Shown one piece after another: positions 19,372 through 40,284 of a DNA stretch of 44,902 nucleotides. This DNA is from an uncultured beta proteobacterium (GTDB lineage Bacteria > Pseudomonadota > Gammaproteobacteria > Burkholderiales > Burkholderiaceae_E). Position 1 is the stretch's first letter. Each line of letters begins with the position of its first letter. The stretch is taken from assembly GCA_903934295.1 (NCBI GenBank), contig CAIZNI010000031.1, positions 1 through 44,902 on the forward strand, written 5' to 3'. A model generated the notes under the pieces. That model was not told the origin of the DNA. It did no database searches and saw nothing but the letters and a program-made list of their open reading frames with translations. A program made the translations under genes and the position numbers.

Positions 19372-22300
19372 TCAGTTGAAGACGTCCTGGCGGAATCGGC
19401 CGCTGGCTGACAGTGCCTCCAGCCAGGCGTCGGCACTGGCGGCCGCCGTGTCTGTGCCGTGTGCCGCTTCGCCGTCACCCGGGTGGTGTTCACGCCAGAT
19501 GCGCTTAAGCGTCTCGCGCACCGCCGGTGCCATCGCCTTGCCGTCGCCGCACAGGTAGAAGCGGGCGCCCGCCTGGAGCAGCCGCCAGACGTCGTCGCGT
19601 TTGGCCCAGAGGGCGTCCTGCACGAAGCGCCAGGGGTGCTCCGGCAGGCTGGAGTAGGCAGCAACCACCGTCACCACGCCCTGGGCCGACCAGGCGGCGA
19701 GTTCGTCGGCATGCAGCGCGTCGTGCGCCGGGTGGCGCGCGCCGGTGAACAGCAGCGCCGGCGCGCAGGGGTGTCCCTGCGCGCGGTGCCAGGCGAGCTC
19801 CTCGATGAAGCCGCGGAACGGGGCGATCCCGGTCCCCGGGCCGACCAGCACCATCGGCTGGGCCGGATCGGCCGGTGGCGCGAAGTCCGGGCTCGGCGTG
19901 CGCACCTGGGCGGCGATCCATTGGCCGGCGGGCAGTTCGCAGAGGTAGCGTGAGGCGACTCCGCGCCAGCGGTCCTGGCCCGCGGCGGCGGGCGCCTCCA
20001 GCAGGCCCACCGTCAGCGTCAGCTCGGTGGGCGATGCCCGCGCGGAGGAGGAGATCGAATACCAGCGCGGGCGCATCGGCGCGCAGGTCTGCAGGACATC
20101 GGTGAGCGTGGCCTCGATCGCCGGGTATTGCAGCAGCAGCGCGGGCACGCTCGGTCGACGCGCGCCGGCCGGGGCCGCCTCGCCCAGCCAGCCTTTCAGG
20201 GCGGCAAGGGCGTTGGGACAGCGGGTGCGGGTGGCCAGGTGCTCGATGTCGCGCCGGCGCGCCGGGTCCTGCAGTTCGACGAATTCGCCGAGCAACTGCG
20301 ACAGCGCCACCGCCTGGCCGGGGGCCAGGTGTCGCGACAGGGCGGTGTCGCCCGACAGGGTCACGAGGGTCTCGGCAGACAGTCCGAGACGCTCGATCAG
20401 CGCCTGCACCCGCGCCGGTTCGTTGTGCGGGTAGACGGCGAGGTGGTCGCCGGTGGCATAGCCGGGCGTGTCTGTGGCGCCGGTGGCCGACGCCGGCAGC
20501 GCGATCCGCAGGTGGCGGGTCGAGGGGCGCGGCGCCTCGCGGCTGAAATCCCACAGGCCGTCAGCAGGCGCCACCAGTTCGCGGGTGTCGAGCACCCGCA
20601 TGGCTTGCGCCCGCGCGGGCAGCAACGCAGCGCGCACGTCGGCCGGGTCGCTCAGGGTCACCGTCAGTTCGCCCGCCCGCGCACCGGTTGCCGCATCGCT
20701 CGGCCGATGCTGCGCGAGGACCGCCTGCAATGCCGCGCTCCATTGCTCGACCGCGAGATCGAAATCCGCGTTGCCATCGGCCTGGCCGCGCGCGAGGACC
20801 TCGGTGGCGCCGCTGGCCGCGAGGGCTTGGGCGACCCGGGTCGGGAAGGCCTGGTAGGCCGGCCATTGGGAGTTGCCGCAGCCCAGTACCGCGTAGCGCA
20901 GGCCCGGCGCACGCCAGCCGGTCAGCGCGTCGTCATCGAGCAGCGCTTCCAGTCGGCGGGCGCTGTCCGGGGCGCGCCCGTTGTAGGTGGCGGTCACTGC
21001 GATCAGCCAGCCGTCGGTGGGCCAGGGTTCCATGCCCTCGTCCAGCGAGCGCACCTGCGGCTCGAAGCCCGCCGCGCGGGCGCGGGCGGCGATTTCCTCG
21101 GCCACTTCCTGGCAGGTGCCCACGCTGCTGCCGTACAGCACCCGGAAGGGCTCGCGGCCGCTGGTGGGCGAGGGCAGGCCGGCGGTAGCGGAGGCGGTGG
21201 CGGCGGGGCCGACCGAGGAGACGGCACCCGAGGGAAGTGCACCCCGGGGGAGTGCGCCCGGGGGGAGTGCACCCGGGCGGAGTGCAGGGTCCCGGGCGGT
21301 CGGCGCGCCGGGGTCCGAGCCGCTGCGCGCGTCCGCTGTCGCGGCGGGGGCCGTGCCGCGGGCAATCGATTCCCGCGTGTCGAGCCCGGTTCCAGGCCCG
21401 GCTCCAAGCCCGGTTCCCGGCGCGCCGCCCGTCATCGCCCGCACCCGCGGGCTGGCCCGCAGCCGCAGGCCGTCGGGCTTCAGGGTCAGGGTTTCCTTGA
21501 TCGCAAACTGGTAATCATGCGGGTCCGACAGGGCGAAACGCTGCAGGATCACCGCCAGCGCGAGTTTGGCCTCGGTCAGCGCGAACTGCTGGCCGATGCA
21601 GGCCCGCTCGCCGTTGCCGAAAGGCTTGTACGCATGGGGGTGGATGCCGGCGCGGGCCGCTGGCGTGAAGCGCTCGATGTCGAACGCTTCCGGGCGCGCC
21701 CAGTGCCGCGGATGGCGGTGCAGCGCGGGCAGAAAGACCAGCACCCGCTGTCCCTTGCGCAGGCGGTAGCGCCCGCCCAGCAGCGTGTCCTCGAGCGGCG
21801 CCACCGCATAGGAGGGCGCGGTGGGCCACAGCCGCAGGGTCTCGCGCAGCACCCGCTCGATGACATCGAGCCGGGCCAGGTGCTCATAGCGCGGCGTCTG
21901 CCCGTCGGGCATCACCCGATCGACTTCCGCATGGCACTGGGCGAGCACCTCGGGGTGGCGCATCAGCAGATACAGCGCGAAGGTCAGCAACCCGCTGGTG
22001 GTCTCATGCCCGGCGATCAGGAAAGTGATCACCTGGGAGCGGATGTTCTCGTTGTCCAGCGGCTCGTCGGTGAGCGGGTCGCGGGCCTGCAGCATCAGGT
22101 CGAGCAGGTCGCGCTGGGGCAGGGTCGAGGGCGAGTCGCGGCGCGCGCGGATCACCTCGTCGACCAGCGTGTGCATCACCGCGATGTCCTGGTCCATCCG
22201 CTCCAGGCTCGATTTCATCAGCCGGTTCTGGATCGGCAGGCGCGTGAGGCGCTGCATCACCTCGCCCAGCACCCGCGTCATCGCGTCCAGGAAGGGGTGC

Positions 22301-22818
22301 AGTTCATCGCTGGCGAACGAGTCGAACCGGTAGCCGAAGCCGGCCAGCGAGATCGTGTCCAGGGTGAGCCGGGTCATGTCGTCGGCCACCTCGATGTCGG
22401 CATCGGGGCCGCGCTGTTCCCAACGGATGGCCAGGCGCTGCGCCACCTCCAGCATCATCGGGAAGTAGCCCTTCATCGCGCGCTGGCCGAAGGCGGGCAG
22501 CAGGATGCGGTGGGCCTTGCCCCAGTTGGGCTCGTCGCTGCGGGCGGTGAACAGGCCATCGCTGGCCAGCCGGCGCAGCGTCGACAGCGGCGGCCCGACG
22601 GTCTTGGCAAAGCGCTTCGGGTCGGAGAGCTCGGCGACCAGATCGGGATCGAACACGAAGGGCAGCTTCGCGCCCGCGAAGTCGAGCGCCAGGATGCCGT
22701 CGAACCCGCGGCTGGTCTCCAGCAGGTACTGGGTGATCCGGGACTTCGGGATCTGCAGCAGATGACCCACCCAGGGCAGGCCGGGGGGCGAGGGGATCTC
22801 TTGTTCGAGGCTGGACAT
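19372..22818 (-). CDS. Self-sufficient cytochrome P450 / NADPH-P450 reductase fusion (CYP102-like)
   Basis: This 1148-residue protein has the P450BM3 layout. The haem domain shows the I-helix AGHETTS, the ETLR charge pair and the FGNGERACIG haem loop with Cys407 (Cys400 in BM3). The FMN domain begins near residue 558 (VLYGSSVGTCQEVAEEIA, ATYNGRAPDSA). The FAD/NADPH domain has RWYSISSS, VGPGTGIAPFRGFIEE and YLCGDGKAM. CYP102 enzymes hydroxylate medium- to long-chain fatty acids below the terminus. The linker between haem and FMN domains is about 95 residues, against roughly 20-25 in BM3, and is low-complexity. I chose the ATG at 22818 because it gives six residues before the conserved EIPSP; ATGs at 22839 and 22842 lie inside the palindrome shared with the divergent TetR gene. 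Fatty-acid specificity is inferred. Confidence 0.93.
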   Translation of the reverse strand: MSSLEQEIPSPPGLPWVGHLLQIPKSRITQYLLETSRGFDGILALDFAGAKLPFVFDPDLVAELSDPKRFAKTVGPPLSTLRRLASDGLFTARSDEPNWGKAHRILLPAFGQRAMKGYFPMMLEVAQRLAIRWEQRGPDADIEVADDMTRLTLDTISLAGFGYRFDSFASDELHPFLDAMTRVLGEVMQRLTRLPIQNRLMKSSLERMDQDIAVMHTLVDEVIRARRDSPSTLPQRDLLDLMLQARDPLTDEPLDNENIRSQVITFLIAGHETTSGLLTFALYLLMRHPEVLAQCHAEVDRVMPDGQTPRYEHLARLDVIERVLRETLRLWPTAPSYAVAPLEDTLLGGRYRLRKGQRVLVFLPALHRHPRHWARPEAFDIERFTPAARAGIHPHAYKPFGNGERACIGQQFALTEAKLALAVILQRFALSDPHDYQFAIKETLTLKPDGLRLRASPRVRAMTGGAPGTGLGAGPGTGLDTRESIARGTAPAATADARSGSDPGAPTARDPALRPGALPPGALPRGALPSGAVSSVGPAATASATAGLPSPTSGREPFRVLYGSSVGTCQEVAEEIAARARAAGFEPQVRSLDEGMEPWPTDGWLIAVTATYNGRAPDSARRLEALLDDDALTGWRAPGLRYAVLGCGNSQWPAYQAFPTRVAQALAASGATEVLARGQADGNADFDLAVEQWSAALQAVLAQHRPSDAATGARAGELTVTLSDPADVRAALLPARAQAMRVLDTRELVAPADGLWDFSREAPRPSTRHLRIALPASATGATDTPGYATGDHLAVYPHNEPARVQALIERLGLSAETLVTLSGDTALSRHLAPGQAVALSQLLGEFVELQDPARRRDIEHLATRTRCPNALAALKGWLGEAAPAGARRPSVPALLLQYPAIEATLTDVLQTCAPMRPRWYSISSSARASPTELTLTVGLLEAPAAAGQDRWRGVASRYLCELPAGQWIAAQVRTPSPDFAPPADPAQPMVLVGPGTGIAPFRGFIEELAWHRAQGHPCAPALLFTGARHPAHDALHADELAAWSAQGVVTVVAAYSSLPEHPWRFVQDALWAKRDDVWRLLQAGARFYLCGDGKAMAPAVRETLKRIWREHHPGDGEAAHGTDTAAASADAWLEALSASGRFRQDVFN
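21229..21288. repeat. Four 15-bp tandem repeats encoding the P450-reductase linker
   Basis: Diverged 15-base units sharing GGGNGGAGTGC or close variants lie at 21229-21243, 21244-21258, 21259-21273 and 21274-21288, encoding PGALP-type pentapeptides on the minus strand. A second short repeat family (12-base GCCCGGTTCC-like units, about 21385-21420) encodes the Gly/Thr-rich part of the same linker. Confidence 0.8.
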
Positions 22819-22833
22819 GGTTCGCGTGTTATC

Positions 22834-22878
22834 TGACATCATGCGATGTCACTTTAAGGAGGGCGTGGTTTGATGTCA
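22834..22878. promoter_or_regulatory. Candidate TetR operator between CYP102-like gene and TetR gene
   Basis: TGACATC-ATGC-GATGTCA (22834-22851) is a perfect inverted repeat with 7-bp arms, and a third copy of GATGTCA lies at 22872-22878, 18 bases before the TetR start. The arrangement matches autoregulated TetR genes that also repress a divergent P450, as with Bm3R1 and CYP102A1. Confidence 0.6.
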
Positions 22879-26557: not shown

Positions 26558-27709
26558 TCAGATGCTCAGGTCGAGCCGGTTGTAGTCGCGCAGTCCGGCC
26601 CGCGCGGTGTCGTCCCACACCAGGTGCTCGCCCGTCTGCGCATGGGGCTGGTAGACGAAGGGGGTTTCCTGCGGAAAGCGCCGCCGGCGCGCGTCGATGG
26701 CGTAGCCGATGGCCCGGGCGCGCTCGCGGATGCGCGCCTCGTCGTAGAGTCCCGGCGCGCCGTGCAGGCTGCCGCGCGAATTCACCCCCAGCACCGAGCG
26801 GCGCCGGTGGAAGCCGAAATTCACCGTCACCCGCCAGTCGGCGCTGGTGTTGGCGAACGAGCCGTGCACCACCTGCCGGTTGGTGATCGCGACATCGCCC
26901 GGTCGGCACACGATCGGGACCGCGTCGGGCAGGCGCTCGGAGCCGGCGCTGGCCGACAGCGCGCGGATGTCGGCCTTGCCCCCCTTGTGCGAGCCGGGGA
27001 TCACCCAGACCCCGTTGGCCGGCGTGCAGCCGTAGAGCTGCGCCATGAAGTTGAATCCGTGCGAGCCCTCGTCCCAGTCCGGACTGTTCCAGTGGGTCAC
27101 GCCGTCCTGATGCCAGGCGACCGAGGCGCCAAGCCCCGGCTGCTTGATGAACAGGGCCTCGTTGAAGGGCACGAAGTCGTCGCCGTTGACCGCCGCGGCG
27201 ACCGCCAGCAGCTCCGGATGGCCATAGACCCGCAGTGCGGCCTCCGAGAACTGCAGCGAACCGAGGATCAGGTAGACCACCTCGGCGGGCGCGTCCGAGG
27301 CGGCGGTCGGCTCGAACATCTTCACCGGGTGGCGGCCATTGGCCAGTTCGGTGCCGCCCAGCGGATCACCGAGCGGGCGCGACCACATCAGCGGATTCGA
27401 GCGGCAGTCGGCGGCCAGCGCCGGACGACCCTGGCGATCGAGCGGCGCGCCGCGATGCACCGGCAGGCGGGCCAGGATGTCCTGCAGGTCGGCTTCGATG
27501 TCGGCCAGTTCGTCGGCCTTCAGCACGCCCTCGAAGATGTAGAAGCCGCAGCGCCAGTAGGCCGCGAGAATGTCCGGGTGGATGCGGCCCTGGGCATCGC
27601 GCCGGATCGGGCCGCGGTTGCCCAGTTCGGCGGCCCGGCGCTCGCCGTCCTTCAGATAGGCCTGCATGCGGGTCTGCTGCAGGCGGTCATCGGTGGCGAC
27701 TGCGTTCAT
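26558..27709 (-). CDS. PhyH-family Fe(II)/2-oxoglutarate dioxygenase
   Basis: This 383-residue protein has the iron-binding H200-Q-D202 in WHQDGVTHW and the distal H282 in VVHGSFANTS, with R293 placed to bind 2-oxoglutarate (DWRVTVNFGFHRR). This is the arrangement of phytanoyl-CoA dioxygenase-like enzymes, which hydroxylate unactivated carbon. An ATG at 27709 with AGGAGACGCCC upstream decides the start; longer in-frame starts run into the promoter. It is first gene of the operon PhyH, beta-propeller, FAD hydroxylase, VOC. The family is chemically broad, so no substrate is assigned. Confidence 0.88.
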   Translation of the reverse strand: MNAVATDDRLQQTRMQAYLKDGERRAAELGNRGPIRRDAQGRIHPDILAAYWRCGFYIFEGVLKADELADIEADLQDILARLPVHRGAPLDRQGRPALAADCRSNPLMWSRPLGDPLGGTELANGRHPVKMFEPTAASDAPAEVVYLILGSLQFSEAALRVYGHPELLAVAAAVNGDDFVPFNEALFIKQPGLGASVAWHQDGVTHWNSPDWDEGSHGFNFMAQLYGCTPANGVWVIPGSHKGGKADIRALSASAGSERLPDAVPIVCRPGDVAITNRQVVHGSFANTSADWRVTVNFGFHRRRSVLGVNSRGSLHGAPGLYDEARIRERARAIGYAIDARRRRFPQETPFVYQPHAQTGEHLVWDDTARAGLRDYNRLDLSI

Positions 27710-27909
27710 GGGCGTCTCCTGGTAGGGGGCGGTTTCGCGCCCGGCGGGCATTGGCCGATCGGCTGGACTGAGCGTAGAGGGTGCGCTCGAATTGTCAACC
27801 CGACGCAAGCCGCGCGACTCATGGTACGGTGCAGTCGGATCGATTTTGAACCGGTGGTTCGCCCGGTTTCGGTCTTTCGCCTCAGGCCTCGGTTCCCCCC
27901 TTCGAACGC
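27710..27909. promoter_or_regulatory. Divergent control region between PhyH operon and P450 gene
   Basis: This 200-base gap contains a minus-strand TTGACA (27793-27798) that could be the -35 of the PhyH operon, with only a poor TACGCT-type -10 at short spacing. The palindrome GAACC-GGT-GGTTC (27848-27860) lies 50 bases before the P450 start and is a candidate operator. No regulator gene is adjacent. Confidence 0.35.
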
Positions 27910-29397
27910 ATGACCATGACACCCACCACGCTCGCCGCCCCGCCCGTTACTTCCGCCGATCCCGGCCCGACGCCCGGTCGCCCGCTGCGCGAGCTGGCCT
28001 CGCTGCCGGGCCCGCGCGGTCTGCCCCTGCTGGGCAACGCGCTGCAGATCGATCCCCCGCGCTTTCACCTGCAGGTCGAGCAGTGGTGCCGCGAGTTCGG
28101 TCCCTATTTCAAGCTGCGCATGGGCCGTTTCACCGTGCTGGTGGTGGGCGACCACGAGGCGGTCGCCACCGTGCTGCGCGATCGGCCGGACGGCTTTCGC
28201 CGGACCATCAAGCTGGAGCTGATCGGCGCCGAGATGGGCCTGCAGCCGGGCGTGTTCGGGGCCAACGGCGAGGTCTGGCGCCGGCAGCGTCGCATGGTGA
28301 TGGCGGGCTTCGATCCGGCGCATGTGAAGGGCTATTTCCCCTCGATGCAGCGGGTCGCGAGCCGTCTGGAGGGCCGCTGGCGCAAGGCGGCGGCCCGGTC
28401 GGCCGACATCGACCTGCAGGCCGACCTGATGCGCTACACGGTGGACACCATCGCCGGGCTGGCCTTCGGCGCCGAGGTCAACACGCTGGAGTCCGACCAG
28501 GACGTGATCCAGCAACACCTGGACAAGATCTTTCCCTCCCTCTACAAGCGGATCCTCGCGCCGGTGCCGATCTGGCGCTGGGTGCGCAGCGCCGCCGACC
28601 GTCAGCTCGAGCGCAGCATCACCGAAGTCAATGCGGCGGTGGCCGGCTTCATCGCCCAGGCGCGCGAGCGCCTGCAGGCCGATCCGGCGCTGCGCGAGCA
28701 TCCGCGCAACCTGCTCGAGGCGATGATCGTCGCGGCCGACCAGCCCGACAGCGGCATCGACGACCGTCAGGTGGCTGGCAATGTGATGACGATGCTGCTG
28801 GCCGGCGAGGACACCACCGCCAACACCATCGCCTGGATGATCCACCTGCTGTGGCGCAATCCGCAGGCCCTGGCGCGGGCCCGCGACGAGGTCCGCCGGG
28901 TGACCGGTGATGCGGCCGAACTCACCCTCGAACAGATGGCGCAGCTCGAGTACATCGAGGCCTGTGCGCACGAGACCATGCGCCTGAAGCCGGTCGCGCC
29001 GCAGATGCCGCTGCAGGCGTTGCGCGACACCGCGATCGGCGATGTCCGGGTGCCGGCGGGCACGGTGGTCATCAACCTGCTGCGCCGCGACAGCGTGAGC
29101 GAGGCCCACGTGCCGCGCGCCGATGCCTTCGAGCCGGAACGCTGGCTCTCCGAAGGCGGGCCGGCCCAGCAGGCCAATGCCGCGCGCCGCCTGTCGATGC
29201 CCTTCGGCGCCGGGCCACGGATCTGCCCCGGCCGCTATCTGGCGCTGCTCGAGATGAAGATGGCGATGGCGACCCTGCTGGGCCGCTTCGACATCGAGAC
29301 GGTCGACACCCCGGACGGCCAGCCGGCTCAGGAGCGTCTGTCGTTCACCATGACCCCGGTGGGCCTGCGCCTGCGGGTCCGGCAGCGGGCGGCCTAG
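27910..29397 (+). CDS. Cytochrome P450 (unfused)
   Basis: This 495-residue P450 has the proline-rich entry LPGPRGLPLLGN, WRRQRRMVMAGFDPAHVKGY (C-helix), the I-helix AGEDTTANT, ETMRLKP (ExxR), FEPERW and the haem loop FGAGPRICPGRY with Cys439. The style is that of membrane-type (eukaryotic-like) bacterial P450s, but no N-terminal anchor helix is seen. It lacks a fused reductase, so it needs a ferredoxin or flavodoxin partner, and none is encoded next to it. It is divergent from the PhyH operon and convergent with the aldehyde dehydrogenase gene (11 bases between stops). The ATG at 27910 is used; one at 27916 is equally possible. Confidence 0.92.
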   Translation: MTMTPTTLAAPPVTSADPGPTPGRPLRELASLPGPRGLPLLGNALQIDPPRFHLQVEQWCREFGPYFKLRMGRFTVLVVGDHEAVATVLRDRPDGFRRTIKLELIGAEMGLQPGVFGANGEVWRRQRRMVMAGFDPAHVKGYFPSMQRVASRLEGRWRKAAARSADIDLQADLMRYTVDTIAGLAFGAEVNTLESDQDVIQQHLDKIFPSLYKRILAPVPIWRWVRSAADRQLERSITEVNAAVAGFIAQARERLQADPALREHPRNLLEAMIVAADQPDSGIDDRQVAGNVMTMLLAGEDTTANTIAWMIHLLWRNPQALARARDEVRRVTGDAAELTLEQMAQLEYIEACAHETMRLKPVAPQMPLQALRDTAIGDVRVPAGTVVINLLRRDSVSEAHVPRADAFEPERWLSEGGPAQQANAARRLSMPFGAGPRICPGRYLALLEMKMAMATLLGRFDIETVDTPDGQPAQERLSFTMTPVGLRLRVRQRAA

Positions 29398-29408: not shown

Positions 29409-30782
29409 TCAGGGCTGGCGCAGGTGCCAGGCCTTCATCCGCGTCATCGCCCGGATCCCGTGGACCGACAGCGTCACCCCCACCCCCGAATCGCCGACGC
29501 CTGACCAGGGCAGGCGCGGGCTGACCCGGTCGCAGCAGTTCCAGTAGACGCTGCCCGCGGCGACCCGCGACAGGATCGCGCGGGCGGCGGATTCGTCGCG
29601 GGTGTAGACCCCGGCGGTCAGCCCGTAGCGGGTGTCGTTCATCAGCGCGAGCGCTTCCTCGTCGCCGCTCACCGACTGAATGCCGATCACCGGGCCGAAG
29701 CTTTCCTCGCGCATCAGCGTCATCCGGTGGTCGACGCCGGTCAGCACCGTCGGGGCAAACCAGTTGCCCGGGCCGGGCAGGCGCTGCCCGCCGGCGCGCA
29801 GACTCGCCCCCAGCGCCAGCGCGTCGGCGATCTGCGCCTGCAGCACATCGAGCTGCGCCGGGCGGGTGATCGCGCCGATGTAGGTGTCGTCGTGCATCGG
29901 ATCGCCCCGCTTCATCGCCGACACGCTCGCCAGGAGGTGCTCGACGAAGGCGTCGTGCAGCTCGTGATGCACATAGATGCGCTCGACCGAGCAGCAGCTT
30001 TGTCCGGTGTTGTAGAAGGCGCCATCGGCCAGTGACTCGGCGGCCGTCCGCGGGTCGGCATCGGCGCGGACATAGGTCGGGTCCTTGCCGCCGAGTTCCA
30101 GCTGCAGCCGGATCAGGCGTCCTGCCACCTGCCGGGCGATGCGCTGGCCGGTGGCGTGCGAGCCGGTGAAGAACACGCCGTCCAGCCGCTGCTCGAGCAG
30201 GGCCGCGCCGGTGTCGCCACCGCCCGTCACGCAGGCCAGCACCGCCGCCGGCACGCCCGCCGCGTGCAGCAGCCGCACGATGTGCTGCCCGCTCAGAGTC
30301 GCGTATTCGGACGGCTTGTAGAGCACCGCGTTGCCGGCCGCCAGCGCGGGCACCAGCACGTTGCAGCCGACGAACCAGGGGTAATTCCAGGCCGAAAGGC
30401 TGGCCACCACGCCCAGCGGCTCGTGAGTGATCTGCTCGCTCAGACCGGTGTCCTCGAACACCGTCTCGTCGGCCAGGCTGCGCCCCGTCTCGGCCAGAAA
30501 GAAGTCCAGGCGTCCGAGCAGTCCGTTGAGTTCGTTGCGCGATTGCGCGATCGGCTTGCCCACCTCCTGCGTCAGGGTGGTGGCCAGGGTCTCGAGCTCG
30601 GCCACCACCGCCGCGCGGAAGCGGCCGATGACCGCGAGGCGTTCGGCCAGCGGCACCGCGGCCCAGGCCGGTTGCGCCAGGCGGGCGGCCTGGGCCTTGG
30701 CGGCGATGGCGGCGGGCTCGTCGACTGCCAGTTCGCCGATCGAGGCGCCGGTGGCGGGGTTGATGATCGTCAGTGTTTTCAT
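29409..30782 (-). CDS. NAD(P)-dependent aldehyde dehydrogenase
   Basis: This 457-residue ALDH-superfamily enzyme has SAWNYPWFVGCNVLVPAL (cofactor entry), FFTGSHATGQRI, LELGGKDP with the general-base Glu, and NTGQSCC with catalytic Cys263 followed by an unusual second Cys264. It ends WSGVGDSGVGVTLSVHGIRA. It resembles succinate-semialdehyde/betaine-aldehyde-type enzymes in size. It is last of phnW, GS-like, FeADH, ALDH, 52 bases after the dehydrogenase gene. Since phnY encodes the dedicated phosphonoacetaldehyde dehydrogenase, this enzyme probably handles a different aldehyde, most simply the product of the neighbouring alcohol dehydrogenase. Confidence 0.92.
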   Translation of the reverse strand: MKTLTIINPATGASIGELAVDEPAAIAAKAQAARLAQPAWAAVPLAERLAVIGRFRAAVVAELETLATTLTQEVGKPIAQSRNELNGLLGRLDFFLAETGRSLADETVFEDTGLSEQITHEPLGVVASLSAWNYPWFVGCNVLVPALAAGNAVLYKPSEYATLSGQHIVRLLHAAGVPAAVLACVTGGGDTGAALLEQRLDGVFFTGSHATGQRIARQVAGRLIRLQLELGGKDPTYVRADADPRTAAESLADGAFYNTGQSCCSVERIYVHHELHDAFVEHLLASVSAMKRGDPMHDDTYIGAITRPAQLDVLQAQIADALALGASLRAGGQRLPGPGNWFAPTVLTGVDHRMTLMREESFGPVIGIQSVSGDEEALALMNDTRYGLTAGVYTRDESAARAILSRVAAGSVYWNCCDRVSPRLPWSGVGDSGVGVTLSVHGIRAMTRMKAWHLRQP

Positions 30783-30834
30783 GGGGATGTCTGGAACGGA
30801 TTCGGGGAGATGCGCGCAGCGGGCCGGGCGCCGC

Positions 30835-31968
30835 TCAGAGGGCGGCGCGCAGCAGACGGGTGTAGTCGTCGACGCCGGCCGGGCGCGGGTTGGTGCCGCC
30901 GGCGAAGTCGACCGCGGCCAGTGCCGCGAGCCGCGGGATCTGCGCCTCGGTCACCCCGTGGGCGGCCAGCCCGCCGCGGATGCCGATGGTGGTCTTGAGC
31001 TCGCGCAGCCACGGCACGAAGGCCGCGCCCCCGCTGCCCAGTCCCGCGGCATGCGCCAGGTCGTCGAACAGCGCCGGCACCGCCTCGTGGTTCCAGGCCA
31101 GCACGGTGTCGATCATCAGCGCGTTGGCCAGCCCGTGGTGCAGGTCGGCTACCGCGCCCAGCGCGTGGGCGCAGGCGTGCACCGAGCCCAGGTCCTTCTG
31201 GAAGGCGATCGCGCCCATCAGCGAGGACATCATCATGTCGCGGCGCGCCAGCCGGTCGGCAGGGTGGGCGACCGCGGTCGCCAGGGCGCGCGCGCCGATC
31301 CGCAGGCCCTGCAGCGCGATGCCGTCGCACAGCGGATGCCAGGCCGGCGACAGGTAGCTCTCGATGTTGTGGGTGAGGGCGTCGATGCCGGTGGCCGCGG
31401 TGATTGCCGGCGGCAGCGCCAGCGTGAGTTCGGGGTCGGCGAACACCGCGCGGGCCAGCAGGCGCGGGCTGAACACCGAGCGCTTTACATGGGTGTCGTC
31501 CTCGGCCACCACCGCCGAGCGGCCGACCTCGGAACCGGTGCCCGAGGTGGTGGGCAGCGCCACGAACCAGGGCAGCGGATTGACGATCGGGCGCACCTGC
31601 GGGTGATCCCAGACGTACTCGATCACGTCGCCCTCGTGCACCGCCATCAGGGCGACCACCTTGGCCACGTCCAGGGCCGCGCCGCCGCCGAAACCGATCA
31701 CGCAGTCGGCCTCGTGCCGGCGAAACGCAGCCGCGCCCGCCATCACCTGGCTGGCGGTCGGATTGCCGTGCACGCCGTCGAACACCGCGCTGTGCAGTTC
31801 GCCCAGGTGCGAGCGGAACTCGGCCAGCAGCGGCAGCGCCGCCAGCGCGCGGTCGGTGACGATCAGCGGGCGGCGCAGGCCGGCCTCGCGCAGGTGGCCG
31901 GCGACCAGGCGGCGTGCGCCGTCGCCGAAGTGGATCTCGGTCGGAAAGGAGAATCGGGTGATGGTCAT
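30835..31968 (-). CDS. Iron-containing (group III) alcohol dehydrogenase
   Basis: This 377-residue enzyme has GFGGGAALDVAKVVAL for NAD binding, LPTTSGTGSEVGRSAVV, and the metal-site series DALTHNIESYL, HACAHALG and HHGLANA. Group III dehydrogenases interconvert alcohols and aldehydes. In phosphonate biosynthesis a relative (PhpC) reduces phosphonoacetaldehyde to 2-hydroxyethylphosphonate, so the reverse reaction on a hydroxyalkylphosphonate is one possibility. Oxidation of a gamma-glutamyl amino alcohol made by the adjacent GS-like enzyme is another. The gene lies four bases after the GS-like gene, so co-translation is likely. Confidence 0.9.
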   Translation of the reverse strand: MTITRFSFPTEIHFGDGARRLVAGHLREAGLRRPLIVTDRALAALPLLAEFRSHLGELHSAVFDGVHGNPTASQVMAGAAAFRRHEADCVIGFGGGAALDVAKVVALMAVHEGDVIEYVWDHPQVRPIVNPLPWFVALPTTSGTGSEVGRSAVVAEDDTHVKRSVFSPRLLARAVFADPELTLALPPAITAATGIDALTHNIESYLSPAWHPLCDGIALQGLRIGARALATAVAHPADRLARRDMMMSSLMGAIAFQKDLGSVHACAHALGAVADLHHGLANALMIDTVLAWNHEAVPALFDDLAHAAGLGSGGAAFVPWLRELKTTIGIRGGLAAHGVTEAQIPRLAALAAVDFAGGTNPRPAGVDDYTRLLRAAL

Positions 31969-31972
31969 GGCG

Positions 31973-33337
31973 TCAGATGATCTCGAAGTAGCGTTTCAGT
32001 TCCCAGTCGGTCACCGCATCGAGCCACTGGCGCCATTCCCACTCGCGGGTCGCGGCGAAGTGATCGACGAAGGTGTCGCCCAGCCAGTCGCGGGCGATGT
32101 CGGACTGGCGGAACCGGCGGGTGGTCTCGATCAGGGTGCGCGGCGCGCGCTCGATGCCCTCGGCCCCCTGGTTGGTGCCGGTGATCGGCGGCGTGGTCAG
32201 CTTCAGGCCCTTCTCGACGCCGTCCAGGCCGGCCGCGATCACCGCGGCCATCGCGAGGTAGGGGTTCACGTCGGCGCCCGGACAGCGGGTCTCGAGCCGG
32301 GTCGATGTCGGGCTGCCGGCGATGACACGGAAGCTGGCGGTGCGGTTGTCGATCCCCCAGGTCGGCTTGACCGGCGCCCAGTACCCGTCGACCAGCCGCT
32401 TGTAGCTGTTGACGGTCGGCCAGAACATCGGCGCGAACTCCATCAGGCACGCCACCTGGCCGGCCAGGTAGCTCTCGAAGACGCTGCTCATGCCGCGCGG
32501 GCGGCGCGCGTCGTGAAACAGGTTGCGCCGTCCGTCCGACAGGCTCTGGTGGATGTGGCCGCTGCAGCCCGGGTATTGCTGGCTCCACTTGGCCATGAAG
32601 CTGGGCATGATGCCGAAGCGGTGGCCGATCTCCTTGGCGCCGGTCTTGAACAGGATCGCGCGGTCGGCGGCCTCGAGCGCTTCGCTGAAGGCGATCGCGG
32701 CTTCGTAGACGCCGGGCCCGGTCTCGGTGTGCAGGCCTTCGATCGGCACCCGGAAGGCGGCCATCTCGTCCATCAGGGCGTTGAAGAACTCGCGGTTGCC
32801 GTTCATGCGCAGCATCGAATAGCCGAACATGCCGGGCGTCAGGCTGGTGGGCGAGACCCCCTGCTTGGCGGCCCAGGTCTGGGGCGTCTCGGCGAAGTTG
32901 AACCACTCGAATTCCATGCCCGTCATCGGTGTGACGCCCATGCGCCGGGCGCGATCGAGCACCCGGCGCAGCGTCTGGCGCGGGCACACCGGGTAGGCCG
33001 AGCCGTCGGCGTTGACGAATTCGCCCAGGAAGAAGGGCACGCCGCCGTCCCAGGGCACGTGGCGGGCGGTGTCCAGGTCGATGCGGGCCAGCGCGTCGGG
33101 GAAGCCATGCTGCCAGCCGGTGACCTCGGTGTTGTCGTAGCAGACGTCGTGGGAATCCCAGCCGAACACCACGTCGCAAAAGCCGAAGCCGGACGTCGCG
33201 GCGCCGAAGAACTTGTCGCGGTGCAGGTACTTGCCGCGCAGGATGCCGTCGATGTCGCTGACTGCGACCTTGACCTTGCCGGTATCGGACTGGCGTACGG
33301 CGGCCAGCGCCGGGTGTTCCTTGCCTCGTGTTGCCAT
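31973..33337 (-). CDS. Glutamine synthetase-like ligase (probable gamma-glutamyl-amine synthetase)
   Basis: This 454-residue GS-fold protein has DIDGILRGKYLHRDKF (N-terminal domain), GMEFEWFNF, HTETGPGVYEAAI and CSGHIHQSLSDG (metal and ATP sites), NSYKRLVDGYWAP, and CPGADVNPYLAMAAV. The adenylylation segment NLYDLP of true GSI is absent, and the C-terminal part differs from GlnA. This points to the PuuA/IpuC/GlnA4-like group, which ligates glutamate to amines other than ammonia. It sits between phnW and the Fe-alcohol dehydrogenase gene. The amine might be ethanolamine, another amino alcohol or an aminophosphonate. The family is clear; the substrate is inference. Confidence 0.88.
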   Translation of the reverse strand: MATRGKEHPALAAVRQSDTGKVKVAVSDIDGILRGKYLHRDKFFGAATSGFGFCDVVFGWDSHDVCYDNTEVTGWQHGFPDALARIDLDTARHVPWDGGVPFFLGEFVNADGSAYPVCPRQTLRRVLDRARRMGVTPMTGMEFEWFNFAETPQTWAAKQGVSPTSLTPGMFGYSMLRMNGNREFFNALMDEMAAFRVPIEGLHTETGPGVYEAAIAFSEALEAADRAILFKTGAKEIGHRFGIMPSFMAKWSQQYPGCSGHIHQSLSDGRRNLFHDARRPRGMSSVFESYLAGQVACLMEFAPMFWPTVNSYKRLVDGYWAPVKPTWGIDNRTASFRVIAGSPTSTRLETRCPGADVNPYLAMAAVIAAGLDGVEKGLKLTTPPITGTNQGAEGIERAPRTLIETTRRFRQSDIARDWLGDTFVDHFAATREWEWRQWLDAVTDWELKRYFEII

Positions 33338-33358
33338 CGGGGGTCCTGAAAGGGGGGG

Positions 33359-34477
33359 TCAGCGGGCGGGCGCGCCGCTGTCGATGCCCATGACGTCGAG
33401 CGCCCGGGCCACCGCGGCCACCGCCTGGCGCATCTCGTTGGCGCCGATGGCGCCGATGCAGCCGACCCGGAACGTCTCGACCTCGGTGAGCTTGCCGGGA
33501 TACAGGATGAAGCCCTGCGCCCTGGCGGCCTCATAGAAGCGCCTGAAATCATAGACCGGATGGGCCGGCGCATGAAATGTGACGATGACCGGCGCCTGCC
33601 AGCGCGCGTCCAGGAAGGGCTGAAAGCCCAGCGCGCGCATGCCGGCGATCAGGGTGCGGCAGTTGTCGTCGTAGCGGGCCAGGCGCGCCGGCTGCCCGCC
33701 CTCTTCGTCGAATTGCGCGATCGCCTCGGCGAGCGCCGCCACCACATGGGTGGGCGGGGTGAAGCGCCACTGGCCGGTCTTCTCCAGGTATTGCCACTGG
33801 TCGTGCAGGTCCATCGCCAGTGACTGGCTGTGGCCGGCGCATTGCGCGAGCACCGCCTTGCGCAGGAACACGAAGCCCATGCCGGGCACGCCCTCCAGGC
33901 ATTTGCCGCTGGCGGCGATCAGCGCATCGAAACGGATCTCGCGCGCGTCGATCGGCAGCGCCGCGAAGGAACTCATCGCATCGACGATCAGCCCCCGGCC
34001 CTGGCGCTCGCACACCCGGGCCACCTCGGCCAGCGGATTGAGCACGCCGGTGCCGGTCTCGCAGTGAATCAGCATCACATGGGTGATGCCGGGGTCGGCC
34101 GACAGCGCGGCATCCAGTGCCACCGGGCTGACCGGCTGGTCCTCGGGGAAGGGCAGCAGCGTGGCGCGACGCCCCATCAGGGTGGCGAGCCGGGCGGCGC
34201 GCTTGCAGTAGGCGCCGTTGTCCAGGACCAGGACATGGCCGGTGCGCGGGACAAGGGTGGCCACCGCCGCCTCGACGCTGAAGGTGCCGCTGCCCTGCAG
34301 GGGCACCACGGTGTGGGTGTCGGGAGCGCCGACGATGGCGAGCAGGCGCTCGCGCACCCGGGCGGTGAGTTCGATGAAGCCGGTGTCCCACGAGCCCCAG
34401 TCGCGCAGCATCGCCAGCTTCGTGCGCAGCGTGGTGGTGAGCGGCCCGGGGGTGAGCAGGATGGGGTCTCGGTCCAT
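33359..34477 (-). CDS. phnW: 2-aminoethylphosphonate:pyruvate aminotransferase
   Basis: This 372-residue class V aminotransferase converts 2-aminoethylphosphonate and pyruvate to phosphonoacetaldehyde and alanine. It has the family opening [10 protein letters not shown], the substrate loop [31 protein letters not shown], and the PLP-binding Lys192 in [13 protein letters not shown]. It closes with [18 protein letters not shown]. These match PhnW closely. It is first gene of the minus-strand operon and divergent from gntR across an inverted-repeat promoter. With PhnY and PhnA across the divide it gives a complete route to acetate and phosphate. Confidence 0.95.
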
Positions 34478-34571: not shown

Positions 34572-34604
34572 TGTCAACGGTATTTTGCAGATTGTTGACA
34601 AAAT
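34572..34604. promoter_or_regulatory. Back-to-back promoters with nested inverted repeats (phnW / gntR)
   Basis: TGTCAAC (34572-34578) and GTTGACA (34594-34600) form a perfect inverted repeat with 15 bases between. Each arm is a consensus TTGACA -35 box, one facing phnW and one facing gntR. Nested within are ATTTTG-N11-CAAAAT (34582-34604) and TTGT-TG-ACAA (34592-34601), the latter fitting the TNGTNNACNA pattern bound by many GntR proteins. A plus-strand -10-like TTGAAT at 34618-34623 touches the annotated gntR start. Confidence 0.6.
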
Positions 34605-34621: not shown

Positions 34622-36617
<1,996 letters not shown>

Positions 36618-36683
36618 TCGGCTCGCGCGGCCGCGGCGGTCCGCGGTTTCCCGGATGGACCCGTCCCTTTGCCGGGGTGCCCT

Positions 36684-38126
36684 GTGACCGAACCCCGTAT
36701 CGAAGGCCTGCGGATTGCCGGCGAGCGCATCGGCGCGCAGTCGGGCGGCGATCGTGCGATCGCGGTCGCCCATCCGTTCAGCGGCGCGGTGGTGGGCTAT
36801 GTGCCCAAGGCCACCCTGGCGCAGGTGCGCCGGGCCTACCAGGTGGCGCACGGCTATCGCGCCACCCTGAGCCGCTATGAGCGGGCCGGCATCCTGAACC
36901 GCGCCGCCCAGGCGGTGCGCGAGCGCACCGACGAGATCGCCGGGCTCATCACCGCCGAAGCGGGGCTGTGCCTGAAGGACTCCCGCTACGAGGCGGGCCG
37001 GGTGGCCGATGTGCTGATGTTCGGCGCCCAGGAGGTGCTCAAGGACGACGGGCAGTCGTTCTCCTGCGACATCACCCCGCACGGGCGGCGCCGGCGGGTG
37101 TTCACCCAGCGCGATCCGCTGCTCGGGGTGATCACCGCGATCACCCCCTTCAACCACCCGATGAACCAGGTGGCCCACAAGATCGTGCCCTCGATCGCCA
37201 CCAACAACCGGATGGTGCTCAAGCCCTCCGAGAAGGTGCCGCTGTCGGCCTTCCTGCTGGCCGACATCCTGTACGAGGCGGGGCTGCCGCCCGAGATGCT
37301 GGCGGTGATCACCGGCGACCCGCGCGAGATCGCCGACGAGATGATCACCAACCCCTCGGTCGATCTGGTCACCTTCACCGGCGGGGTGGCGATCGGCAAG
37401 GCGATCGCGGCGCGCGCCGGCTATCGGCGCCTGGTGCTCGAGCTCGGCGGCAACGACCCGCTGATCGTGATGGAGGACGCCGATCTGGACGAGGCTTCGC
37501 TGCTGGCGGTGCAGGGCTCGTACAAGAACTCCGGCCAGCGCTGCACCGCGGTCAAGCGGCTGCTGGTGCACCGCTCGGTGGCGGCGCGCTTCACCGAGCG
37601 GGTGGTCGACCGGACCCGGGAGTGGCGCTTCGGCGATCCGGCCGATCCGCAGGTCGACATGGGGACGGTGATCGACGAGCAGGCCGCACGCCTGTTCGAG
37701 GCGCGCGTCGACGAGGCGATCGCCCAGGGGGCGCGCCTGCTGACCGGACACCGGCGCGAGGGGGCGCTGTACGCGCCCACCGTGATCGACGGGGTCGATC
37801 CGAAGATGACGGTGGTGCGCGAGGAGACCTTCGGACCGGTCTCGCCGATCATCGTCTTCGACGACCTCGATCACGCGATCCGGATCGCCAACGGCACCGC
37901 CTACGGCCTGTCCTCGGCGGTGTGCACGCAGCGGCTCGACTACATCACCCGCCTGGTCAACGAACTGCACGTCGGCACGGTGAATGTGCGCGAGGTGCCC
38001 GGCTATCGGCTCGAGCTGACGCCGTTTGGCGGCATCAAGGACTCGGGGCTGGGCTACAAGGAGGGCGTGCAGGAGGCGATCAAGAGCTTCACCAACCTGA
38101 AGACCTTCTCGCTGCCCTGGGCATGA
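36684..38126 (+). CDS. phnY: Phosphonoacetaldehyde dehydrogenase
   Basis: This 480-residue ALDH oxidises phosphonoacetaldehyde to phosphonoacetate with NAD. It has ITPFNHPMNQVAHKI, VTFTGGVAIGKAIA, LELGGNDPLIVMED with the general-base Glu, and NSGQRCTAVKR with catalytic Cys287. The start chosen is GTG at 36684; the alternative TTG at 36669 adds five residues, and no ATG fits. The stop overlaps the DMT gene as ATGA. It lies between phnA and the DMT gene in one transcript, and its context makes the assignment more secure than sequence alone. Confidence 0.93.
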   Translation: MTEPRIEGLRIAGERIGAQSGGDRAIAVAHPFSGAVVGYVPKATLAQVRRAYQVAHGYRATLSRYERAGILNRAAQAVRERTDEIAGLITAEAGLCLKDSRYEAGRVADVLMFGAQEVLKDDGQSFSCDITPHGRRRRVFTQRDPLLGVITAITPFNHPMNQVAHKIVPSIATNNRMVLKPSEKVPLSAFLLADILYEAGLPPEMLAVITGDPREIADEMITNPSVDLVTFTGGVAIGKAIAARAGYRRLVLELGGNDPLIVMEDADLDEASLLAVQGSYKNSGQRCTAVKRLLVHRSVAARFTERVVDRTREWRFGDPADPQVDMGTVIDEQAARLFEARVDEAIAQGARLLTGHRREGALYAPTVIDGVDPKMTVVREETFGPVSPIIVFDDLDHAIRIANGTAYGLSSAVCTQRLDYITRLVNELHVGTVNVREVPGYRLELTPFGGIKDSGLGYKEGVQEAIKSFTNLKTFSLPWA

Positions 38127-39013
38127 GCGGGCCCCTGCCGCTGACCGAGCCGCTCGCGCTGACCGGGCCGGTGATCGCGGTGGTGCTGGTCGGCGCGCTG
38201 CTGCACGCCGGCTGGAACGCGCTGGTCAAGTCGTCCGGCGACAAAGCGGTGGACACCGCGCTGGTCCATTTCCTGGGCGCGCTGATGGCGCTGCCGGTGC
38301 TGCTGGTGACCGGGCTGCCGGCGCCCGCGTCATGGCCCTTCATCGGTGTGTCGCTGCTGATCCACGTCGGCTACTACATGGCCCTGTCGGGCGCCTATCG
38401 GCACGGCGATCTCGGGCTCACCTATCCGATCATGCGCGGCTTCGCGCCCCTGCTGGTGGCGCTGGCGAGCGGCTCGCTGATCGGCGAGGTGCTGTCGCTG
38501 GCGGCCTGGCTGGGCGTCGTCGGGATCACCCTGGGGGTGGCGCTGGTCGGGCTCGCCAGTCCCGGGCAGGCGCTGAACCATCGCAAGGCGCTCGCCTTTG
38601 CGCTGGCCAATGCGGTGATCATCGCCTGCTACACCGTGGTCGACGGGCTCGGTGTGCGGCAGGCGGGCAATGCGGCCGCCTATGTGATCCTGCTGTTCGT
38701 GCTCGACGGGCTGCCGTTTCCGTTGCTGGTCTGGGTGTCGCGCGGCGCGCAGGGGCGGGTGCAGATCCTGCGCTATGCGCGCACCCGCTGGCCGCTGGCG
38801 GCGCTCGGCGGCGTCGCCTCGATCGGCTCCTACTGGATCGCGCTCTGGGCGATGACGCGCGCGCCGGTGGCCGCTGTCGCGGCGTTGCGCGAAACCTCGG
38901 TGCTGTTCGCCGCGGTGCTGGGGGTCTGGCTGCTCAAGGAGCGCTTCGGCGTGCAGCGCGCGATCGGCACGGTGGTGCTGGTGGCGGGCGTGATCGCGTT
39001 GCGCCTGGGCTGA
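38123..39013 (+). CDS. DMT-family membrane protein associated with phosphonate use
   Basis: This 296-residue protein has ten hydrophobic segments in two EamA-like halves, beginning VIAVVLVGALLHAGWNALVK. ALSGAYRHGDLGLTYPIMRG marks the first half, and ALWAMTRAPVAAVAALRETS with LLKERFGVQRAIG the second. A DUF6/DMT protein of this type is a recurrent neighbour of PhnA/PhnY genes. It could import a phosphonate or export a product. No phosphonate ABC importer (PhnCDE) is in the window, so this is the only transport candidate in the locus. Confidence 0.88.
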   Translation: MSGPLPLTEPLALTGPVIAVVLVGALLHAGWNALVKSSGDKAVDTALVHFLGALMALPVLLVTGLPAPASWPFIGVSLLIHVGYYMALSGAYRHGDLGLTYPIMRGFAPLLVALASGSLIGEVLSLAAWLGVVGITLGVALVGLASPGQALNHRKALAFALANAVIIACYTVVDGLGVRQAGNAAAYVILLFVLDGLPFPLLVWVSRGAQGRVQILRYARTRWPLAALGGVASIGSYWIALWAMTRAPVAAVAALRETSVLFAAVLGVWLLKERFGVQRAIGTVVLVAGVIALRLG

Positions 39014-39112: not shown

Positions 39113-39748
39113 TCAGATCGGCGACAGGCCCAGCGCGCGGCGGAACCGGTTCTTGTTGTCGACGCCGTCGCGCGAGGGCATTACCCGTGGCGGCTCGGTC
39201 TGCGCGATCTGAAGGGTCGCCAGGCCGGGGCCCTCGCAGCGGTGGATGCGCGCGCGCAGCGCCGCGATCGCCGACAGCCCGGTGATGCGCTCGGTCCAGG
39301 CGAACGCGCAGGCGGCGGCGACGCCCGCCAGATCGATACCACGGCCGGTGTGGCTGGTCTGCATCCCGGTTTCGCCATACAGCCGGTTGTCCAGCACCGC
39401 GATGCTCAGGTTGCGCGGTCGCTGCGCGCCGATGGTGGCCAGCGCGCCCATGCCCATCAGCTGCTCGCCGTCGCCGGTGATCACCAGCACGGGGGTGTCG
39501 GGACGGGCCAGCGCCAGGCCCAGGCCCATGACGGCCGCTCCGCCCATCGCGCCCCACAAATAGAAGTTGCGCTCGTGGTCGCCGGCGGCGGCCACGTCGT
39601 AGGTGGGCGACCCCAGGCCGGTGACGACCAGCAGGTCGCCGCGGTCGGCCAGCAGCGCGGCGACGGCGGCGCGCCGGTCCAGCGTGCCCGGCGCCTCGGC
39701 GGCGCCGGCAGGGGCGGGGGAGTTCGAATCCGGTTGGGTGGTGGCCAT
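39113..39748 (-). CDS. Thiamine-diphosphate decarboxylase, beta subunit (sulfopyruvate/phosphonopyruvate type)
   Basis: This 211-residue protein is the C-terminal ThDP-binding half of a two-subunit decarboxylase. It has the GDGEQLMGMGALATIG start of the ThDP-magnesium motif and VLDNRLYGETGMQTSHTG at the expected distance, where Asn binds magnesium. GLGSPTYDVAAAGDHERNFY and AMGGAAVMGLGLALARP are typical of ComE and of the C-terminal half of phosphonopyruvate decarboxylase. The start at 39748 leaves a two-base gap after the alpha gene; the ATG at 39763 would overlap it by 13 bases. The substrate is 2-oxo-3-sulfo- or 3-phosphono-propanoate by family, and the phosphonate context favours phosphonopyruvate. 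Confidence 0.85.
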   Translation of the reverse strand: MATTQPDSNSPAPAGAAEAPGTLDRRAAVAALLADRGDLLVVTGLGSPTYDVAAAGDHERNFYLWGAMGGAAVMGLGLALARPDTPVLVITGDGEQLMGMGALATIGAQRPRNLSIAVLDNRLYGETGMQTSHTGRGIDLAGVAAACAFAWTERITGLSAIAALRARIHRCEGPGLATLQIAQTEPPRVMPSRDGVDNKNRFRRALGLSPI

Positions 39749-39750
39749 CG

Positions 39751-40284
39751 TCAGCGCGTCCATTGCTTGCGCCCGAGCAGGCGCTGTGAAATCAGGATGG
39801 CCACCGGCTGGTCGGCCAGGAAGGCATCGTCCAGGCCGGCCTGGACCTCGTCGGCCATCCGGGCGGGATCCTCGACCCGGCGCACCGACAGGCCCATCAT
39901 CGACAGCGCCGCCGGAACCGCGCGGCCCATCGGCACCTGCCAGGGGTTGAACTCGCCCCACTCGCCGCGCATCGTCACCAGCATCAGCAGCGGAAAGCGG
40001 CAGTTCTCGATCAGGCTGAGCAGGTTGATGCAGTTGCCCACCCCGCTGGACTGCATCAGCAGCACCGCCCGCTGGCCGCCCAGCCAGGCGCCGCAGGCGG
40101 CGGCGATGCCTTCCTCCTCGGTGGACAGCGGGTAGGCGGTGATGTCGGGGTCGGCGTGCGCGCGCGCGATCAGCCGGCTGTGGCCGGCGTCGGGCACATA
40201 GGCGACCTGTCGAACCGCGTTGCGGCGAAAGGTTTCGAAGACCTGATCGCGCCAGTCGGGCGCGGCGGGGGTGTCATGGGACAT
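39751..40284 (-). CDS. Thiamine-diphosphate decarboxylase, alpha subunit (sulfopyruvate/phosphonopyruvate type)
   Basis: This 177-residue protein is the N-terminal (pyrimidine-binding) half. Its catalytic Glu is in YPLSTEEEGIAAACGAWLGG, followed by VLLMQSSGVGNCINLLSLIE and RGEWGEFNPWQVPMG, the pattern of ComD sulfopyruvate decarboxylase alpha. The alpha-beta split into two tightly spaced genes is the ComDE arrangement; most phosphonopyruvate decarboxylases (Ppd, AepY) are single chains of about 390 residues. The gene points away from the phosphonate operon and its 139-base upstream region is shared with the HNH gene. No PEP mutase is nearby, which argues for a catabolic rather than a phosphonate-making role. 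Confidence 0.86.
   Translation of the reverse strand: MSHDTPAAPDWRDQVFETFRRNAVRQVAYVPDAGHSRLIARAHADPDITAYPLSTEEEGIAAACGAWLGGQRAVLLMQSSGVGNCINLLSLIENCRFPLLMLVTMRGEWGEFNPWQVPMGRAVPAALSMMGLSVRRVEDPARMADEVQAGLDDAFLADQPVAILISQRLLGRKQWTR

Follow-up and report, generated by a model that had tools for sequence, protein, structure and literature searches.

The locus considered here lies in a 44,902-nucleotide stretch of DNA (the window) from an uncultured beta proteobacterium of the Burkholderiales (contig CAIZNI010000031.1 of assembly GCA_903934295.1). It raises the question of why a run of genes for the breakdown of 2-aminoethylphosphonate (AEP) should continue, directly behind phnW, with a glutamine-synthetase-like ligase (GSL), an iron alcohol dehydrogenase (FeADH), and an aldehyde dehydrogenase (ALDH). 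A first-pass annotation, made from the sequence alone, had placed these four genes in one minus-strand run with phnY and phnA on the other arm, and the recomputed coordinates and the profile scores agree: the run is tight, with gaps of 21, 4, and 52 nt, and faces the plus-strand arm phnR-phnA-phnY. Our comparison of related loci suggests that this is probably an AEP operon, of a Burkholderiales-kind bacterium, with a built-in ethanolamine catabolic module. Many bacteria, on this comparison, seem to carry such a second, probably ethanolamine-degrading enzyme set inside the AEP operon. The features are as follows.

29409–30782, minus strand: aldehyde dehydrogenase, predicted to produce gamma-glutamylglycine (PF00171, 427 bits; LELGG and GQSC motifs)
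30835–31968, minus strand: Fe-dependent alcohol dehydrogenase, predicted gamma-glutamylethanolamide dehydrogenase (PF00465, 148 bits; metal motifs)
31973–33337, minus strand: GSL, predicted gamma-glutamylethanolamide synthetase (PF00120 Gln-synt_C, 306 bits)
33359–34477, minus strand: phnW, 2-aminoethylphosphonate:pyruvate aminotransferase (PRK13479, 569.9 bits, cutoff 296; TIGR03301, 476 bits, cutoff 361)
34572–34601, minus strand: predicted PhnR operator, TTGTCAACAAT (11-mer copy at 34591–34601) with a second half-site TTGACA 24 nt on
34622–35410, plus strand: phnR, GntR/FCD regulator of the phosphonate cluster (phnR_burk TIGR03338, 299 bits, cutoff 271.5)
35403–36617, plus strand: phnA, phosphonoacetate hydrolase (TIGR02335, 623 bits, cutoff 408; start set near the beginning of the TIGR02335 match)
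36669–38126, plus strand: phnY, phosphonoacetaldehyde dehydrogenase (TIGR03250, 856 bits, cutoff 636)
38126–39013, plus strand: EamA-type membrane protein, possible cluster transporter (TIGR03340 phn_DUF6, 227 bits, below the cutoff of 288; PF00892)

PhnW, PhnY, and PhnA of this PhnWAY-type cluster all exceed their curated cutoffs. The metal motifs of FeADH and the Cys/Glu motifs of ALDH are both found in the window proteins, judged by patterns that we take to be characteristic of the two families. The ligase retains catalytic residues of a glutamine synthetase while its ammonia site is absent. Aligned with Escherichia coli GlnA, in what we assume to be the usual residue numbering of that enzyme, GSL keeps E129, E131, E212, E220, H269, R321, R339, R344, E357, and R359, which are the metal, ATP/nucleotide, and glutamate residues compared. 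Glu327 is replaced by Trp and Asn264 by Pro, and the Tyr179 loop is deleted. The adenylylation site, Tyr397, is Gln, which bears out the description of a ligase without the adenylylation segment.

Three assignments of GSL to known families were rejected. As an ammonia-dependent glutamine synthetase it scores 210 bits against TIGR00653 (cutoff 429), and the ammonia-site residues are altered (E327W); the protein is without the ammonia-site features of glutamine synthetase, so that production of glutamine from ammonia, the outcome that would have spoken against the first-pass annotation, is not what its sequence suggests. As a type III glutamine synthetase it scores 205 bits (cutoff 470), and as the gamma-glutamylputrescine synthetase PuuA 182 bits, far below the cutoff of 650. 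Two further glutamine-synthetase-family genes are present in the window genome, and one shares 67% identity with E. coli GlnA. In a tree that included IpuC and the Eto-type ligase but not GlnA4, the nearest relatives of GSL form a sister family, followed by these two ligases (each 36% identical to GSL). PuuA is 26% identical. Like IpuC and PuuA, GSL combines the glutamine synthetase fold with a changed ammonia site, although those two enzymes serve isopropylamine and putrescine pathways. Homologs of all three window enzymes occur in an ethanolamine-type cluster of Paracoccus (GS-like ligase 36%, FeADH 41%, ALDH 41% identity).

Is the association of the three genes conserved? A search for GSL at E 1e-60 or better in a sample of 300 genomes of the order found it in 34 genomes: 13 with a close homolog (at least 65% identity, window included), 15 with a member of the sister family (46–53%), and six with distant homologs only (33–36%). 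A scan of named genomes yielded at least 80 GSL loci. Mapping across the named genomes and the order sample, with the duplicates L132, L135, and L069 dropped, gave 90 distinct loci whose GSL reaches at least 56% identity. Among the 60 loci with at least 6.5 kb of downstream sequence, FeADH is present in 56, a same-strand ALDH in 49, both in 49, and a PuuD-like hydrolase in 42. In the sister family, ALDH and FeADH adjoin GSL in 15/15 cases, with the order GSL-ALDH-FeADH instead of the GSL-FeADH-(hydrolase)-ALDH of the close family. The conservation in 49 of 60 close loci and in the whole sister family supports the earlier proposal of a gamma-glutamyl amino-alcohol oxidation route.

The link to phosphonate genes also recurs. 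In 30 of the 90 loci, phnW is the immediate same-strand neighbor of GSL (26/67 among loci with at least 4 kb upstream), many of these 30 being metagenome bins, and the arrangement is found in eight named genera: Rubrivivax, Ramlibacter, Pseudaquabacterium (Aquabacterium terrae), Polaromonas, Rhizobacter, Rhodoferax, Limnohabitans, and Caenimonas. Within the order sample, phnW is present in 7/13 genomes with close GSL versus 28/287 others (Fisher p 1.7e-4, relatedness uncorrected), and all seven co-carrying genomes have the two genes on a single contig, no more than 28 kb apart. In sister-family genomes phnW occurs in 4/15 and never near the module. The trio in the phnW run is thus not a local accident, and the first-pass annotation stands in that the three genes are often found together near phnW.

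In its fullest form the operon comprises nine genes, AepS-AepT-AepU-phnW-GSL-FeADH-PuuD-ALDH-HAD, divergent from phnR-phnA-phnY-EamA, where AepS, AepT, and AepU stand for PhnS2, PhnT2, and PhnU2 of the AEP ABC transporter. Measured in nine loci, most gaps between the genes are short; longer insertions are present in L080, L090, and L109. Across the 30 phnW-adjacent loci, with contig ends counted as misses, an AepU (PhnU2) homolog is found in 22 and phnA or phnY in 20; the window is one of the eight without a PhnU2 homolog. The transporter genes of locus L034 match PhnS2, PhnT2, and PhnU2 above cutoffs. Where at least 6.5 kb of downstream sequence is available (22 phnW-adjacent loci), FeADH is present in 21, ALDH in 20, the hydrolase in 15, and a same-strand HAD-IB phosphatase gene in 18.

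Additional genes accompany the module in some loci. In three related genomes (L040, L041, and L042) a secreted amidohydrolase-like gene, labelled by eye, lies between GSL and FeADH. A GNAT acetyltransferase homolog follows shortly after GSL in 10 loci (L080, L089, L090, L092, L099, L101, L106, L107, L108, and L113), which span phn, phn-free, and short-contig kinds. Between GSL and FeADH of two phn-GSL operons lies a glutamate-carboxypeptidase-like M20 gene (L090:11479–12756 and L109:11384–12676; the L109 copy was scanned), which is possibly another gamma-glutamyl hydrolase.

The HAD-IB gene follows the combination of phnW and GSL. The four of 22 loci that lack it are the window, L066, L072, and L079. 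With equal flank, it is found in 0/7 loci in which the module stands beside a permease and in 0/15 loci with neither phn genes nor permease (p 7e-9 for the enrichment in phnW-GSL loci, relatedness uncorrected). The order sample holds 36 phnW places, of which 29 were mapped as further loci, three were already in the mapped set, and four at 39–40% identity were left out. No HAD was found near phnW in 28 of the 29 further phnW loci; in the 29th, G241, phnW is followed by HAD and GSL lies 18 kb away on the same contig. In nine loci measured, HAD comes right after ALDH (gaps of −7 to 116 by match borders); L045 has it between phnW and GSL.

The phosphatase is a paralog of a housekeeping enzyme. All eight operon genomes searched carry an operon HAD and a housekeeping copy, and six of seven permease or phn-free genomes carry the housekeeping HAD only; the seventh has two other copies. 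In a second search, G211 and G241 were found to carry both types, and seven other genomes, apart from weak hits, the housekeeping type only; two of these, G152 and G250, are phn-linked without adjacent phnW. The operon HADs form one clade apart from histidinol-phosphatase (support 95/80), with L229, a divergent HAD labelled housekeeping, on a long branch next to the operon clade. A housekeeping-clade HAD on the other strand in L043 was excluded from the operon HAD count. Against the histidinol-phosphatase model NF052360 (cutoff 280), the operon copy of L034, the one operon copy scanned, scores 221, whereas the housekeeping copy of the window genome passes with 308. No residues fixed differently between operon and housekeeping HADs were found at the 90% level. 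By sequence, the operon HAD is a paralog of histidinol-phosphatase: it shares that family but differs in its separate clade and, for L034, in its score below the cutoff. Histidinol phosphate is an amino-alcohol phosphate too. Since the phosphatase is found where AEP genes and the module co-occur, its presence points to an amino-alcohol phosphate as substrate, most simply phosphoethanolamine.

Are the two branches under common control? A 10-mer, TTGTCAACAA, is present in 22/22 intergenic regions in which phnR diverges from AepS or phnW; the 11-mer TTGTCAACAAT is present in 21 of these 22, and a second half-site, TTGACA, follows 22–24 nt on in 17. The mapped loci, 1.85 Mb in all, contain 25 copies of the 11-mer, of which 24 fall singly in phn-labelled loci, close to phnR, AepS, or phnW. 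A second perfect copy in the window genome (contig C23) was discounted, being without the second half-site. We predict that this conserved sequence is the operator bound by PhnR. L092 and L102 have a PhnR gene (322 bits in L092) and carry the palindrome ATTGTTAACAAT just before GSL, and phnW was not found in these genomes at E 1e-60, so the module may come under PhnR-type control even where phosphonate genes are missing. The segment concerned (L092:7559–9832, and its counterpart in L102) joins the PhnR-family regulator to an amino acid permease and the module, and the "phosphonate" name of this regulator family may be too narrow.

These data bear on the explanation that two unrelated pathways share an operon merely as nitrogen and carbon scavenging routes under one regulator, with an unrelated role of the HAD. 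We consider this rather unlikely. It would account for L040, L041, and L042, in which phnW and the module share a contig but stand 11–28 kb apart, with no HAD near phnW and, in the two of these genomes that were searched, no operon-type HAD; the variability of the operon, with its occasional extra M20 and GNAT genes, would fit as well. It accounts less readily for the recurrence of the adjacency in eight named genera, the conserved operator core, the PhnR gene with ATTGTTAACAAT before GSL in the two genomes in which phnW was not found, or the distribution of HAD, which, G241 apart, is missing from the permease, phn-free, and further phnW loci with enough flank.

Which amine does the ligase use? 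A homolog of TIGR00908-type permeases is encoded 49–228 nt from GSL in 12 loci, and in 11 of them it shares the strand of GSL. Five of these permeases were scanned, and those of L035 (628 bits) and L140 (430 bits) pass the TIGR00908 cutoff of 382. In two other genomes a permease gene immediately precedes eutB, and its product shares 76–78% identity with the L035 permease, which links the latter to ethanolamine. An EutR-like AraC gene is found 1.7–4.0 kb from GSL in 7/12 permease loci and, in Polaromonas OV174, inside the phn operon between phnW and GSL. EutB was absent in 11/11 phnW-GSL genomes tested, window genome included. In a GSL tree built by a quick method, the phnW-adjacent and permease contexts intermingle, with six changes under the strict phnW-adjacent label, at least two of them forced by starred branches, and the permease clade of L035–L037 and L075 nests among phnW loci with moderate branch support (SH-aLRT 84–90). 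This mixing suggests that the module switched context more than once while keeping one substrate. Taken with the conserved trio and the ethanolamine-type permease and EutR contexts, it makes conversion of ethanolamine through gamma-glutamylethanolamide and gamma-glutamylglycine to glycine and glutamate the best reading.

A different idea is that the ligase glutamylates AEP or hydroxy-AEP, as protection or activation, and that the dehydrogenases act on a phosphonate intermediate. The physical linkage to phnW, the AEP transporter, and PhnR would favor it. However, AEP has no alcohol on which FeADH could act, and PhnW, PhnY, and PhnA suffice to break AEP down. The module is, in addition, found where phnW is not: among module-bearing genomes without adjacent phnW, phnW is absent in 11/12 searched at E 1e-60. 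Glutamylation of AEP itself was set aside for that reason, and the mixed contexts on the GSL tree argue for one substrate. We regard action on a phosphonate as very unlikely. The first-pass annotation had left the choice between an amino alcohol and an aminophosphonate; as judged from these comparisons, the substrate is most probably an amino alcohol, likeliest ethanolamine, and the aminophosphonate half of that proposal is not upheld. Its claim that the extra enzymes imply a second substrate beside AEP gains support from the same comparisons.

Several observations weigh against ethanolamine as the substrate, or against parts of the wider operon model. At 36% identity to the Eto-type ligase and to IpuC, GSL is too distant from either for homology to settle which amine it uses. 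The module permeases of L043, L094, and L119 score 362–376, just under the TIGR00908 cutoff, so the module there may serve another amino alcohol. The EutR-like hits, three of which were scanned, reach 144–152 bits against a model cutoff of 319, EutR being nonetheless the best NCBIfam model. EutB and the module are both present in 3/7 other genomes tested (L092, L094, and L096), in two of which eutB has its own strong-type permease; this co-occurrence makes another amino alcohol possible there. With the widest phn label (39 loci, including L092 and L102 with PhnR and without phnW), the tree, under three labels, gave 14 changes. The hydrolase is missing in 7/22 phnW-GSL loci with enough flank. 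HAD is also found in 4/24 loci in which the contig breaks off shortly upstream of GSL, so that the context is not visible, and in G038 the operon HAD is the sole copy, the housekeeping one being absent. Nor do genomes that are related to one another count as independent samples. Finally, the window itself lacks the HAD and any AEP or ethanolamine transporter above cutoff, and its hydrolase is unlinked.

Some of these points could be explained if the module acted on another amino alcohol, such as 1-amino-2-propanol, 3-aminopropanol, or alaninol, with ethanolamine a minor substrate; the steps would be the same, and a different gamma-glutamyl amino acid would result. Genomes that carry eutB with a strong ethanolamine permease and also a GSL module with a weaker-scoring one fit this proposal, as does IpuC, which is named an isopropylamide synthetase and is as close to GSL as the Eto-type ligase is. 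In the clade of L035–L037 and L075, however, the L035 permease is a clear ethanolamine permease and no EutB was found in the two genomes tested (L035 and L036), and EutR-like regulators lie near the module. We judge another main substrate to be unlikely.

We thus favor a pathway in which GSL would join glutamate and ethanolamine, with ATP, to gamma-glutamylethanolamide, which FeADH would oxidize to the aldehyde and ALDH to gamma-glutamylglycine. Release of glycine and glutamate would then fall to the PuuD-like hydrolase, whose gene is part of the operon in many relatives but unlinked in the window genome. PhnW, PhnY, and PhnA would break down AEP in parallel, with both branches under PhnR. Where relatives have the full operon, the HAD-IB phosphatase would convert phosphoethanolamine to ethanolamine and phosphate, which is the least certain step. 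It is possible that phosphoethanolamine is imported by the AEP transporter, such that the operon serves both aminoethyl head groups. The full operon could then be a joint system for phosphono and phospho aminoethyl head groups, with one AEP-type ABC importer for both, a recruited HAD-IB paralog, and PhnR acting on both branches; we offer this larger proposal tentatively, with somewhat more doubt than confidence.

How does the window fit? It would represent a reduced case, in which phnW and the trio are kept behind the operator and AepSTU, HAD, and the hydrolase are not in the cluster. Contig C11 encodes an ortholog (62%) of the PuuD-like hydrolase found in the operon of relatives, and the window genome holds one HAD of the operon family, the housekeeping copy. 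No AEP ABC transporter PhnS2T2U2 above cutoff was found in the window genome (best TIGR03261 match 182 bits, cutoff 393), nor an ethanolamine permease (best TIGR00908 match 72 bits; the TRAP protein EtoX was not searched for). The EamA protein beside phnY is a candidate transporter of the window cluster; four phn-free loci of Ramlibacter and Caenimonas (L073, L101, L106, and L108) likewise have an EamA protein facing GSL.

Gamma-glutamylation of ethanolamine is itself a known pathway; what is new is its wiring into an AEP operon and the phosphatase, which was out of sight of the first-pass annotation since the window has none. The first-pass description of the branch as one not described before does not hold for the chemistry, which has been reported in Phaeobacter and Streptomyces, but applies to the AEP-operon wiring. 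The available text of PMC10132767 describes the Phaeobacter sp. MED193 pathway, with ETAGA, GETADH, GAADDH, GGAH, and the TRAP transporter EtoVWX, and calls the genes closely related to a demonstrated Chromohalobacter and Agrobacterium pathway. According to the same text, the four-step proteins are induced on phosphorylethanolamine, and EtoX binds ethanolamine, not phosphorylethanolamine. The operons are alike in combining a ligase, two dehydrogenases, and a gamma-glutamyl amidohydrolase, and the Paracoccus cluster with homologs of the window trio has the layout of the Phaeobacter operon as described there. They differ in that the present module sits in an AEP operon with a PhnR-type operator, with a HAD phosphatase added in relatives, and in that its hydrolase is PuuD-like (C26) whereas the Paracoccus cluster has an N-formylglutamate amidohydrolase. 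Streptomyces coelicolor GlnA4 makes gamma-glutamylethanolamide (PMC6529630). Its cluster likewise begins with a GS-like synthetase, followed by predicted dehydrogenases and an amidohydrolase, but it has a short-chain dehydrogenase, and no phosphonate genes are named in the available text of that paper.

On the phosphonate side, the locus resembles PhnWAY AEP clusters in its phnW, phnY, and phnA genes and, in relatives, the AEP ABC transporter (PMC10574752, as far as its available text goes). The ancillary enzymes of such clusters described in the available portions of PMC8154272, PMC10590968, and PMC12366243 (PbfA, PbfB–D, and PbfF) bring other phosphonates to phosphonoacetaldehyde, whereas the module considered here would handle a phosphate-free amino alcohol. 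A text search of the available portions of these four papers gave no mention of glutamine synthetase, and in those of PMC10734445, PMC11857848, and PMC7858074 the relevant words co-occur in unrelated places only. Among the matches listed from titles and abstracts of the open-licence literature, none reports an ethanolamine module inside an AEP operon.

Phosphonate clusters have so far been mined for enzymes that admit other phosphonates; here a molecule without a C–P bond appears to be admitted. If so, the breakdown of AEP and of a phospholipid head group would be one genetic programme in several Burkholderiales genera, linking phosphorus, nitrogen, and carbon supply and treating phosphonolipid and phospholipid head groups as one resource. 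On this reading, a phosphoethanolamine phosphatase of bacteria, an AEP transporter with a broader range of substrates, and a PhnR operator are to be expected, and caution would be called for in using AEP transporter or phnW genes as markers for phosphonate use alone.

Further genes of the window lie to either side of the cluster. Adjoining the EamA gene after phnY are two small minus-strand genes (39113–40284) that resemble the alpha and beta subunits of sulfopyruvate/phosphonopyruvate decarboxylase, with every model score below cutoff; the pair, which has no match in other mapped phn loci, could feed phosphonopyruvate into the cluster as phosphonoacetaldehyde. Downstream of ALDH (26558–29397), a PhyH-family dioxygenase on the minus strand and a cytochrome P450 on the plus strand likewise have no match in other mapped phn loci. 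A long minus-strand open reading frame at 19372–22842 appears by eye to be a CYP102-like fusion of P450, flavodoxin, and reductase.

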